Below, in pieces: positions 39,634 to 44,253 of a DNA stretch of 58,167 nt. Position 1 is the first letter of the stretch; each line of letters starts with the position of its first letter. Both the position numbers and the translations under genes were made by a program. The notes beneath the pieces were generated by a model. It saw nothing but the letters and a program-made list of their open reading frames with translations, ran no database searches and was not told the DNA's origin. Origin of the DNA: Aigarchaeota archaeon (GTDB taxonomy: Archaea > Thermoproteota > Nitrososphaeria_A > Caldarchaeales > Wolframiiraptoraceae); contig JANXDW010000031.1 in assembly GCA_025058515.1 (NCBI GenBank), positions 1 through 58,167 of the forward strand, read 5' to 3'.

Positions 39634-40290
39634 ATGCTGAAGACTTTAGAAGCAAACTTAAGTATGGCGATTGAAAGAGCAAAGAATAGTGGAGAATCTA
39701 GAAAGTTTGAGCAGAGCTTAGAGTTAATAATAAATATCAAAGGAGTAGACTTGAAAAAGACTGAGAATAGGTTTGTAGAAGATATAGAGCTTCCAAATGG
39801 TCTAGGAGATGGGAGGAAGATCTGCATCATAGCTGGAAGTGCTCTTGCTTCTGAAGCGAGGAGAATAAGTGAAGTAAGTAGAGTAATAGAGAGAGATGAA
39901 CTAGAGTCGCTTGTCGGAAATAAGAGATTGGCGAAGAAGATCGCTTCACAGTATGATTATTTCTTAATAGATCCTCCATTAATGGGTTTAACTGCGAAAG
40001 CTCTTGGAGCTGCTCTCGGAGGAAGAGGTAAGAGACCTGTACCGATACCTCCAGGATCAAGTATAGGTGAGCTTGTTAAGAGATATAGTAGAACAGTTAC
40101 CGTAAGTGTGAGGAAGAATCCTCAAGCAATGTGTATGATCGGCTCAGAGAGAATGGATACAAAAGCTCTAGTTGAGAATGCTTTAACAGTAATCTCTAAA
40201 GTCTCGGATAGATTAGAGAAACATTTCAAGAATATTAAATCTATTTACGTTAAGAAGACGATGGGTAAACCTGTAAAAGTAGAGTTATAA
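39634..40290 (+). CDS. rpl1: ribosomal protein L1
   Basis: This is a 218-residue protein that binds the L1 stalk of 23S rRNA. Typical archaeal L1 motifs include 'FEQSLELIINIKGVDLKKTENR', 'DYFLIDPPLMGLTAKALG', 'GKRPVPIP' and 'KNPQAMCMIGSERMD'. It starts ATG 39634 after a 107-base gap holding its own TATA-like element (TTTATATTAA near 39592). In methanogens L1 represses its own mRNA; no such site was checked here. Instead of rpl10 directly following, a regulator and an oxidoreductase intervene. Confidence 0.97.
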   Translation: MLKTLEANLSMAIERAKNSGESRKFEQSLELIINIKGVDLKKTENRFVEDIELPNGLGDGRKICIIAGSALASEARRISEVSRVIERDELESLVGNKRLAKKIASQYDYFLIDPPLMGLTAKALGAALGGRGKRPVPIPPGSSIGELVKRYSRTVTVSVRKNPQAMCMIGSERMDTKALVENALTVISKVSDRLEKHFKNIKSIYVKKTMGKPVKVEL

Positions 40291-40351
40291 AAATACTGTA
40301 AGAATAGATTAAAGAAAGTTTATCAACGAATATATAGTGTAGGTTTAGAAC

Positions 40352-40957
40352 TTGAAGCAGAAGTTAGGGTTGAAGATCTTAAAGATATTGATACGTAATA
40401 GCGATTGTAGAGTTGTAAAGTTTCTTCAAGATAAAGAAGTTGAGGCAGAGTTTAAGAAGGTTAGGATAAGTGAGGTTTACTCTACTCACTTATTAAAATT
40501 GCTTAAGCCTATTGAAGCTGATAAACATCTTGATGTTCAAGGATCATACATGATCTTACCGGATAGTTATCTCTGGGTAGAAACTGAGAGTTGTACATCT
40601 TGTAGAATCTTCTCTAAGTTACCTGTGATAGTTGAATCTCTATCCTATGTTAAACCTTTAGGGGTTATTGTTAAATTGATAATTCCTGGAAGATTGTACC
40701 ATAAACGTGTGATAGAAGATCTTAGGAATGCGGGGTTAGATGTAGATACACTCTTGATAAAAGATTATGAAGACTATGAGCTGACTAAGAGGCAGAGGGA
40801 AGTTCTTACAACTGCATTGAAGTCAGGTTATTTCGGTAGTAGGAGAGATGCTAAGTTGAGGGATATCGCATCTTTAATAGAGGCGGATCCTTCTACGGCA
40901 TCTCGAATTATGAGAGATGCTATAAAAAAGGTCATTAGAAAAACTTTAGAAGAATAG
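40352..40957 (+). CDS. HTH_10 (Bat-type) transcriptional regulator
   Basis: This is a 201-residue protein with an N-terminal sensing region of the Bat/HTH_10 kind (strand-rich, with CTSCR at about residues 78-82) and a C-terminal HTH_10 domain: 'YELTKRQREVLTTALKSGYFGSRRDAKLRDIASLIE', then 'DPSTASRIMRDAIKKVIRKT'. Archaeal relatives sense redox or oxygen state or small ligands. It lies 72 bases upstream of the oxidoreductase genes in the same direction and is a natural candidate to control them. The Cys pair could make it redox-responsive (inference). Confidence 0.85.
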   Translation: MKQKLGLKILKILIRNSDCRVVKFLQDKEVEAEFKKVRISEVYSTHLLKLLKPIEADKHLDVQGSYMILPDSYLWVETESCTSCRIFSKLPVIVESLSYVKPLGVIVKLIIPGRLYHKRVIEDLRNAGLDVDTLLIKDYEDYELTKRQREVLTTALKSGYFGSRRDAKLRDIASLIEADPSTASRIMRDAIKKVIRKTLEE

Positions 40958-41029
40958 TCGATTAATTAAATGGTTATACAATATTTTGTATAATAGCGTT
41001 ATCTCTAATCATCGTATATTATTATTGGT

Positions 41030-41599
41030 ATGGCTCCTCAATTCTTTATCGAGATCGTCTACTTTATTATAATATCTATCGTAATTGGTTTCATAATAGT
41101 CTTCTATATATTGACTCAAAGAAGGGGAAGAGAGAGTTCGAGTCTAAGCAGTAGAGAGAGTGGAGAGAAGAGGGGGATGGAGAAAGGGGAGAAGCGATGG
41201 CTGATCTTCTTATTCATTATAGTAATCATCGGGAATATACTCTTTTTGTCTCCTATTCTTCCATCTGCTCACTACGTTTTCTGGCTAGAAGAAAAACCAA
41301 AGATAACTATTACCATAGAGGTGAGAAACTATGAATTCGTATTTCCCGAGAAGCCTTTAACTATCCCAGCAGGAGTCCCAGTCGAGTTTATCGTTGTATC
41401 TCAAGACTTAGTCTACGGTTTCGGAGTATTCAGGAAAGACGGGAGCATGGTCTTCCAGATGCAAGTTATCCCTAAACCATACGTAAACAGGATAGTATGG
41501 ATATTTGATGAACCTGGATACTATGATGTAAGATCTACAGAATATAGTGGTCCAAGGCATCCCTATCTATACTTTCCAGATGTTATATATGTTAGATGA
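41030..41599 (+). CDS. heme-copper oxidoreductase subunit II lacking CuA ligands
   Basis: This is a 189-residue protein. It has an N-terminal membrane helix (FFIEIVYFIIISIVIGFIIVF), a charged linker, a second membrane helix near 60-80 and a cupredoxin domain. 'ITIEVRNYEFVFPEKPLTIPAGVPVEF' is the classic subunit II start. At the CuA site, Cys-x3-Cys-x3-His-x2-Met becomes Ser169-x3-Ser173-x3-His177-x2-Leu180, and the first His (usually DVIH) is Tyr129. The spacing is exact, so the fold is kept but the copper site is gone. Electrons must come from a quinol or an unknown donor. It is followed 12 bases later by subunit I. Confidence 0.85.
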   Translation: MAPQFFIEIVYFIIISIVIGFIIVFYILTQRRGRESSSLSSRESGEKRGMEKGEKRWLIFLFIIVIIGNILFLSPILPSAHYVFWLEEKPKITITIEVRNYEFVFPEKPLTIPAGVPVEFIVVSQDLVYGFGVFRKDGSMVFQMQVIPKPYVNRIVWIFDEPGYYDVRSTEYSGPRHPYLYFPDVIYVR

Positions 41600-41611
41600 G
41601 GGTGATGTTAG

Positions 41612-43180
41612 ATGAATGAGGAAGAGAGGAAGATATTGTCGATTAGGTTTGTTGTAGTCTCGTTGATCTTCTTAGCGTTAGCGGGAATTGAGGGGATACT
41701 GATGAGGTTTAGGATAATGAATACTCTCTTAGAGTTCTTTGATGAAAAACATTTCTATTCTATGATGACTGCTCATCCATTCATAGGAGTATATGGTTGG
41801 GCTTATATGACGGTGATGGGGGCTTTCTACTTTCTCATCCCCTACATCCTCAAGAAAGATATCTATAGTAGGAAAGCCGCATACCTAAGCTTCTGGTTAA
41901 TGTTAATAGGTTTAATAGTAGTTTGGGGTACGACGTTCCTAACCCATTATGCTCCACTCTATACACTATACTGGCCTATACCTGTAGCATACGAGATAAT
42001 TGGATGGGATCCCTATTCTATATTATCGTTCGGATTAGGTGTTGTATTGATCTTAGGAGGCGTTCTCATATTCTTTGGAAACATGTTTGCAACGATATTC
42101 TTACCTATGAGACAGATGGATGGAGGAACTACTAGCTCATGGTATGTTTTAAAAGAATTACTTGTAACAGCATTTAATCTAGATAAGATTCGTGCAAAGA
42201 TTTCTAATGTTCCTCAATATACTTCTAAAGCATTTAATTATCCTGTATTCGTTGTAGCTGTTTTTAGAGGATGTGTAGATACGACGCTAAATGCGTTCGT
42301 TATCGGTGGTGTAGGCGTATTACTAGTAGTATTTGCATTAGGAAATCTATTTCCATATCTCTCTATACCGTATAATGTTGTTGATCCATTGATATACAAG
42401 AATGTCTTCTGGTGGGGGCTAGACTTAATAGCTGATGGGAATGTATTGATCTTCACAGCTGGGACATGGTATCTACTCGTTCCACTAATACTTAACAGAA
42501 CTTTATATGGAGAGAATATTGTAAGAACTGTTATACTTGCAGATCTAGTTGTCTCACTATTTGTATGGAATCACCACATGCTCGCTGATACACCTCAACC
42601 ACTATTCCTCCAGTTACAAGGACAGATATTTACTTGGGGAGAGTTGGTGACTATGGGTCTCACGATGTTCGCTGTACTAGCAACCCTATGGTTTGCGAGA
42701 CCAGTCAAGTATAGTATGCCTTTGAAGTTCATCCTCACATCTATTATTGGATATGCTGTAGGAGGTCTAGCAGGTATAATACAAGCAAACTATGCATCTA
42801 ATAGGTTCTTCCACAATACTCAATGGGTTATAGGGATCCATGGACATATACAGTTACTCGTAGGATTATCATCAACATTGTTTGCAGCTATCTACGCTCT
42901 CTTCCCACTACTTACAGGTAAGTCGCTTAATGAAAGATTGGGGAATATTCATTTAATTTTGTGGACTGTGGGAGGGTTGGTGATGGGTTTGAGCATGGGT
43001 TTAGCGGGTACGCAGGGGATGTTGAGGAGGACTCTCTATCCTATGGGCTTAGGAGTATTTGAAACCTATATGACTGTAGCAGTTTTAGGAGCATTGATGA
43101 TGGCTTTAGCTTTTACAGTATTCCTCATAAATATTCTTAGAACAGTGAAGTTGACAGACCTCTTAAAGATAATCTTCTAA
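41612..43180 (+). CDS. heme-copper oxidoreductase subunit I, NO-reductase-like active site
   Basis: This is a 522-residue protein with about 12-13 membrane helices. The low-spin heme ligand His55 is in 'TAHPFIGVYGW', the CuB-type pair is His321-His322 in 'FVWNHHMLAD', and the heme ligands His410 and His412 are in 'IGIHGHIQLL'. In helix VI, the third CuB His and the cross-linked Tyr (His-x3-Tyr) of oxygen reductases are replaced by Asp271 and Asp275 in FWWGLDLIADG. Classical NO reductases have His-x3-Glu there. It is therefore unlikely to be a cytochrome oxidase. It resembles the Asp-containing NO-reductase-like families of the superfamily (gNOR as I recall it). Reduction of NO is inferred, not shown. 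Confidence 0.82.
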   Translation: MNEEERKILSIRFVVVSLIFLALAGIEGILMRFRIMNTLLEFFDEKHFYSMMTAHPFIGVYGWAYMTVMGAFYFLIPYILKKDIYSRKAAYLSFWLMLIGLIVVWGTTFLTHYAPLYTLYWPIPVAYEIIGWDPYSILSFGLGVVLILGGVLIFFGNMFATIFLPMRQMDGGTTSSWYVLKELLVTAFNLDKIRAKISNVPQYTSKAFNYPVFVVAVFRGCVDTTLNAFVIGGVGVLLVVFALGNLFPYLSIPYNVVDPLIYKNVFWWGLDLIADGNVLIFTAGTWYLLVPLILNRTLYGENIVRTVILADLVVSLFVWNHHMLADTPQPLFLQLQGQIFTWGELVTMGLTMFAVLATLWFARPVKYSMPLKFILTSIIGYAVGGLAGIIQANYASNRFFHNTQWVIGIHGHIQLLVGLSSTLFAAIYALFPLLTGKSLNERLGNIHLILWTVGGLVMGLSMGLAGTQGMLRRTLYPMGLGVFETYMTVAVLGALMMALAFTVFLINILRTVKLTDLLKIIF

Positions 43181-43386
43181 GAGATCGCATCTAAAATCAC
43201 AGTCTTCATGATAATTACTTGAAATTCTAGATTATGTTCAACCTTATAGATTTGTTGGTAAGAAGCTGAGAATGAGATATTTAAGATACTTTAGAATCAT
43301 TCTATATTTACAATTTTAAGTTTTTTAAGAAGAGAAGACTTAGAACTGAGTGAGTTAGTAGAGTTTAGAGAGGCGTTGAGCTGGGC

Positions 43387-44253
43387 TTGCAAGATCAAGT
43401 TGTTGTTACAAGAGTACAGAAATGGAAGATTGAAGAAGTTGATGAGCTAGCTGAATATATCAAGAAGTACCCTGTAATCGCTATCTTCAATCTCTATGGG
43501 TTAAGGTCAAACTTGATACATGAGATTAGGAAGAAGCTTAGAGACTACTGTACGATAAGGGTTACCAAAAAAACGCTCTTCATTAAAGCTGCAGATAAAG
43601 CTGGAAGAAAAGATTTAGCTAAACTTGTAGAAGATGTTAAAGCGAGCGTTGGCTTTATCTTCTCAGATGTAAACTTATTCAAACTTAAGATGTTGTTAGA
43701 TAAGAACAAGATACTGATGCATGCTAAAGCAGGTGAGAAAGCAGATATAGATGTAGTAGTTCCAGAGATGAATACTGGTCTACCACCTGGTCCTATCTTA
43801 AGCGATTTTGGAAAACTGAAGATACCTACGAGGATAGAAGGAGGCCAGATATGGGTTGCTAAAGATACTGTAGTAGCTAAGAAGGGTGAAGAGATCTCTC
43901 CACAATTAGCTTCGCTTTTATCGAGGTTGGATATAAAAGCAGTTATGAAGGGGATAACAATTGAAAAAGGTTATGAAGATGGAGTAATTATATTGGGGAA
44001 AGATCTCGAGATAGATTTAGAGAAGATGAAGAGCGACTTGATCGAGGCAAGTAGTTTAGCTGTAAAACTTGCAATTGGGATTGGATATGTAACGAGAGAG
44101 ACTATCCAGCCTCTGCTCATTAGAGCTTATAGAGAAGCTAGAGCTCTTGCAGTTGAAGCTGGATTACCATTCAAAGAAGTGATAGGAGAGATGTTGATGA
44201 GAGCTGAAACAATTGCTATAAAGCTAAAAGAATTATTGGAATCAAAAATGTAG
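43387..44253 (+). CDS. rpl10: ribosomal protein L10 (P0)
   Basis: This is the 288-residue base of the ribosomal stalk, carrying L12 dimers. Family motifs include 'EYIKKYPVIAIFNLYGLRSN', 'RVTKKTLFIKAADKAG' and 'GLPPGPILSDFGKLKIPTRIEGGQIWVAKDTVV'. The C-terminal helices that bind L12 are present, but the acidic 'FG' tail found on some P0 proteins is absent. The start is TTG 43387 and the stop lies 5 bases from the end of the convergent alaS. Confidence 0.97.
   Translation: MQDQVVVTRVQKWKIEEVDELAEYIKKYPVIAIFNLYGLRSNLIHEIRKKLRDYCTIRVTKKTLFIKAADKAGRKDLAKLVEDVKASVGFIFSDVNLFKLKMLLDKNKILMHAKAGEKADIDVVVPEMNTGLPPGPILSDFGKLKIPTRIEGGQIWVAKDTVVAKKGEEISPQLASLLSRLDIKAVMKGITIEKGYEDGVIILGKDLEIDLEKMKSDLIEASSLAVKLAIGIGYVTRETIQPLLIRAYREARALAVEAGLPFKEVIGEMLMRAETIAIKLKELLESKM

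Follow-up and report, generated by a model that had tools for sequence, protein, structure and literature searches.

The window analysed here, a contig of 58,167 nucleotides, carries in the region 39634-43387, flanked by the ribosomal protein genes L1 and L10, a module made of a regulator gene and two structural genes, all read from the plus strand. The regulator gene (40352..40957) starts with TTG and encodes a 201 aa protein of the HTH_10, bacterioopsin-activator type (Pfam HTH_10, E=3.4e-12). Between it and the structural genes sits the inverted repeat ATRCAA-N4-TTGYAT (40976..40991), a putative operator. The first structural gene (41030..41599) encodes a CoxII-like cupredoxin of 189 aa, the subunit II, matched by the profiles TIGR02866 (CoxB, E=7.5e-9) and TIGR01433 (CyoA, E=6.9e-6). 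It lies directly upstream of the gene for the catalytic subunit (41612..43180; 522 aa), a member of the heme-copper superfamily (Pfam COX1, E=7.5e-62).

The catalytic gene is an intact open reading frame with an ATG start, and the COX1 match runs along its whole length. Residues H55, H321, H322, H410 and H412, which make up the heme-copper set (ligands of the low-spin heme and the high-spin heme, and the two CuB/FeB His), are found together with D271 and D275 at the very positions given in the original prediction, and all seven are invariant in 49 aligned homologs. That the protein is a genuine heme-copper family member is further borne out by an AlphaFold2 model (pLDDT 85, pTM 0.88) and by Foldseek comparison of this model, with TM scores of 0.7-0.8 to the catalytic subunits of aa3, bo3 and ba3 enzymes. 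In a sequence alignment, T351 aligns with the K-channel Lys of A-type enzymes. Congeners of the window archaeon hold intact orthologs of the gene, and dN/dS values of ~0.05-0.07 against two of these indicate strong purifying selection.

Helix VI reads W267-W-G-L-D271-L-I-A-D275-G276 (42410..42439, plus strand), in a register taken from profile alignments with B-family oxidases and cNOR. The motif WWGLDxxADG is shared by 83 out of 83 members that span helix VI, whose hosts are archaea and bacteria of at least six phyla; the Asp-x3-Asp site is a family-wide trait, not an oddity of one gene. B-family (ba3-type) oxygen reductases share the fold and give the best profile-profile match (E=3e-40), gapless through helix VI; this match pairs D271 with the CuB His and D275 with the Tyr (FWIFGHAIVY against FWWGLDLIAD). 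These enzymes differ by their His-x3-Tyr. Known ba3 enzymes have a CuA-bearing subunit II. With cNOR, which is distant in sequence (hhalign probability 47%) and has the same predicted reaction, D271 and D275 pair with the two metal ligands, His and Glu respectively (WWVIHLWVE against WWGLDLIAD), WWxxH-x3-E thus aligning with WWxxD-x3-D; cNOR differs by His and Glu in place of the two Asp, and by its cytochrome c partner. Alignments with A-family and cbb3 profiles in part open gaps inside helix VI, and the gapless register was preferred, as the top-scoring comparison yields it.

The reading of two Asp in helix VI and no cross-linked Tyr, made in the original prediction, was confirmed: D271-x3-D275 stands in place of the His-x3-Tyr of A- and B-family oxygen reductases. 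Nor is a Tyr found at the cbb3-type helix VII site (HH-6); in the tree set this position carries Tyr in cbb3 and Ser throughout the gNOR rows, the window protein having S315 there. A conserved helix VI His at the metal site had been named as the observation that would speak against this reading; in the alignments with ba3-type enzymes and cNOR it is D271 that meets the metal His, and the window protein has no His elsewhere in helix VI. An oxygen reductase with a shifted helix VI His was rejected, since the helix contains none and the gapless register stands. Also absent from helix VI of the window protein are the His-x3-Glu of cNOR and qNOR and, residue 275 being Asp, the Gln of eNOR and the Asn of sNOR and CuANor at the active-site position. 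According to published comparisons eNOR, sNOR and bNOR differ from gNOR by Q or N for D at the active site (PMC8756737 Table A4). As their helix VI residues differ, eNOR, sNOR and cNOR were rejected as the identity of the protein.

From 84,980 species genomes, a search started from an alignment of five sequences gave 250 relatives; we kept the best 80. Archaeal hosts among these 80 are Caldarchaeales, Geothermarchaeota and other Thermoproteota, and bacterial hosts are Chloroflexota, Campylobacterota (Sulfurimonas, Sulfurovum, Nitratiruptor), Methylomirabilis, Omnitrophota, Myxococcota, Acidobacteriota and Bacteroidota. The window protein is ~42-45% identical to the proteins of the three Campylobacterota genera over nearly full length (~43% across residues 9-520 for Sulfurimonas and Sulfurovum), and its closest named relatives among the matches listed are Candidatus Geocrenenecus dongiae and huangii (86-87% identity). 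In the tree, a branch with SH-aLRT 99 separates the gNOR clade from the sequences of the A, SoxB, B, cbb3 and cNOR groups; the depth of the clade among the A, B and C families is blurred where long branches meet. Nesting within canonical oxygen reductases, the contrary outcome named beforehand, was not found.

Published descriptions of gNOR give a D at the active site and Sulfurimonas, Sulfurovum and Persephonella as hosts (PMC8756737 Table A4); common descent, checked with the proteins of Sulfurimonas and Sulfurovum, is borne out by identity and tree. Of the remaining heme-copper enzymes, those that were read in genomes of Sulfurovum and Campylobacterales are cbb3 and cNOR (His-x3-Glu), and gNOR is therefore their Asp-type enzyme. 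The Methylomirabilis gNOR (norGH) is described as a quinone-oxidising, non-electrogenic NO reductase (PMC8906906), and a Methylomirabilis homolog (L084) falls inside our gNOR clade. The gNOR proteins of Sulfurimonas, Sulfurovum and Methylomirabilis share with the window protein the motif WWGLDxxADG, the five His, a CuA-less subunit II encoded just upstream and the same tree branch, and are ~42-45% identical to it. As the hosts, the Asp of the active site and the electron donor all agree with published gNOR, we file the window protein as gNOR: it is a new archaeal member of a known family of predicted NO reductases. The proposal of a non-canonical NO-reductase-like family, gNOR, is thus upheld by homology search, tree and literature; for the catalytic subunit there is no need of its other option, an undescribed variant.

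Subunit II has lost its CuA ligands (VYGFG...RSTEYSGPRHPYL); the degenerate ligand loop RSTEYSGPRHPYL (41531..41569, plus strand) aligns with the intact RCTEYCGFRHSEM of a Thermofilaceae homolog. In 75 of the 76 subunit II homologs, Tyr stands in for the CuA His and Ser/Ser (or Ser/Ala) for the two Cys. After the two lost Cys, archaeal sequences keep the CuA His and often the Met; in Campylobacterota and Bacteroidota that CuA His is gone as well. The loss of these ligands suggests quinol as the electron donor of the window enzyme and makes cytochrome c an improbable one. The sole exception of the 76 belongs to the Thermofilaceae archaeon S146 (L061:1713-2285, JALURH010000216.1), whose subunit II has the complete ligand set, H, C, E, C, H, M (THGFG...RCTEYCGFRHSEM). 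With the ligand letters masked it still nests among the CuA-less archaeal sequences, and its catalytic subunit is nested in the same way in the tree; regain of CuA appears to be the simplest reading of this single low-coverage MAG contig. Next to the gNOR pair of a Geothermarchaeota MAG lies the gene for another CoxII/cupredoxin-like protein (L063:6656-7228, minus strand), which shows a partial CuA-like motif, CIEAGG.

Compared with the gNOR of Sulfurimonas, Sulfurovum and Methylomirabilis, the archaeal clade adds the adjacent HTH_10 regulator, and Geocrenenecus adds the conserved palindrome. The regulator contains Cys19 and a CxxC motif (ESCTSC), and its homologs adjoin the gNOR pair in many archaeal loci (Geocrenenecus, Pelearchaeum, Geothermarchaeota, Thermofilaceae, Thermoproteota). 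In haloarchaea, denitrification genes are controlled by bacterioopsin-activator-type regulators that lack PAS/GAF domains, NarO among them (PMC11218638), a parallel that is suggestive only. The palindrome has a single match in the window against 0.01 expected; it is kept at the same place, with paired changes and varying flanks, in four Geocrenenecus-type loci, L047, L048 and L068 besides the window, and its other matches among 187 loci are almost all in Geocrenenecus gNOR loci. A scan for sigma-70 promoters and terminators, unsuited to archaea, gave no excess over chance. The module also lies between L1 and L10 in L048 and right after L1 in L068, where the contig ends inside the catalytic gene, before L10; its site is different in L047. 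In another Geocrenenecus species (G026), L1 and L10 enclose a 134 aa remnant of the HTH_10 regulator and a 74 aa remnant of the gNOR C-terminus (L013:1120-1791), most of the module being deleted there.

Candidatus Geocrenenecus dongiae and huangii belong to the Caldarchaeales, family Wolframiiraptoraceae, and have been described as anaerobic thermophiles (PMC9246946). In the genome of the window archaeon, itself a Geocrenenecus (1.47 Mb, 95% complete), the COX1 protein is the only heme-copper enzyme found; a cytochrome bd pair, 49-kDa complex I/hydrogenase-type subunits and one cytochrome b are also encoded. No model match to NirK, NirS, NosZ or NarG was obtained in this genome, nor were MqnA/MqnD-type menaquinone genes found in it. 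NosZ is present in other gNOR-bearing Caldarchaeales (G006, G007, G014, G025), which fits N2O as the product of gNOR. At the level of the class, gNOR and NosZ show a weak co-occurrence (4/11 versus 2/33, p=0.03, kinship ignored), and no association of gNOR with NirK was found (p=0.69). Some Caldarchaeales loci (L029, L164, L165, L166) carry another heme-copper protein, with WxWAHNLMEA in helix VI (His-x3-Glu), the HH pair present, an atypical or absent HxH heme motif and a starred tree branch of its own, possibly another NOR-like family.

The family also bears on a gap in a published pathway. A 2023 study of Pelearchaeum maunauluense described nirK and nosZ, found no gene for an NO reductase and proposed that iron reduces NO abiotically (PMC10547907). 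An intact gNOR pair (L055:7399-9620, JANVYQ010000009.1) lies in the very MAG of that study (JANVYQ), so the gap is probably one of annotation, and this pair can probably supply the missing NO-reduction step.

Could the enzyme reduce oxygen after all, working without a cross-linked Tyr and with Asp for His at the metal? Its overall fold is nearest to oxygen reductases, the Caldarchaeales MAG paper evidently tallied the same gene pair under cox, and a gNOR-type enzyme is the only heme-copper enzyme in several genomes. Yet Tyr is missing from both helix VI and the cbb3 helix VII site, its loss goes with an invariant second Asp, and many hosts own separate oxidases, cytochrome bd here and A-type or cbb3 in others; we thus regard this reading as improbable. 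Equally slight are the prospects of another substrate or role, for example NO sensing or NO dismutation, for which one can invoke the missing biochemistry of any gNOR member (PMC11388526) and a genome in which no other denitrification genes (NirK, NirS, NosZ, NarG) were detected; against it stand the residue-for-residue alignment of cNOR H-x3-E with D-x3-D, metal-site residues invariant from archaea to at least six bacterial phyla, and the strong purifying selection on the gene.

The remnants left between L1 and L10 in the G026 congener would also fit a decaying gene on its way out, but the window copy is intact and congeners keep intact orthologs; a degenerate gene was rejected by the dN/dS of ~0.05-0.07, and decay has next to no chance of being the explanation. 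A rather unlikely, if conceivable, proposal is that the all-Asp helix VI site, with two His and one or two carboxylates at the non-heme metal of an enzyme without Tyr or CuA, supports a chemistry or metal new to the superfamily, such as NO coupling directly from quinol at an FeB with two Asp ligands, or a non-NOR reaction, with L061 having rebuilt CuA and switched its donor back.

We consider it highly probable that the locus encodes a two-subunit, quinol-oxidising NO reductase of the gNOR type together with a dedicated regulator. As gNOR figures among the proposed NO reductases and not among the biochemically characterised ones (PMC11388526), its function rests on the family. The weak co-occurrence with NosZ, the missing match to MqnA/MqnD-type genes and a genome in which no NO source was detected also speak against this reading. 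The sequence, the conservation of residues, membership of the family, the loss of the CuA ligands, the synteny of the module and the conserved palindrome are shown here; we infer the identity of the metal, the quinol donor, the NO substrate and the regulation by the HTH_10 protein. Electrons from membrane quinol would enter at the low-spin heme (ligands H55 and H412; presumably heme b) and pass to a binuclear site, where the high-spin heme (H410 as proximal ligand) is paired with a non-heme metal that has H321, H322 and D271 as ligands. D275, at the position of the cross-linked Tyr of oxygen reductases and of the metal-binding Glu of cNOR, would probably ligate the metal or relay protons. Two NO, two electrons and two protons would then yield N2O, subunit II keeping its cupredoxin fold without CuA. 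The enzyme most likely clears NO coming from neighbours or from chemistry, beside cytochrome bd; such scavenging is the likeliest main role in this genome because no nitrite reductase was detected in it.

These results put gNOR, together with an adjoining regulator and a putative operator, into an archaeal order, the Caldarchaeales. It could be the NO reductase that earlier studies of relatives of the window archaeon missed, and a family that is known from prediction only now has thermophilic, probably stable proteins with which its biochemistry can begin.
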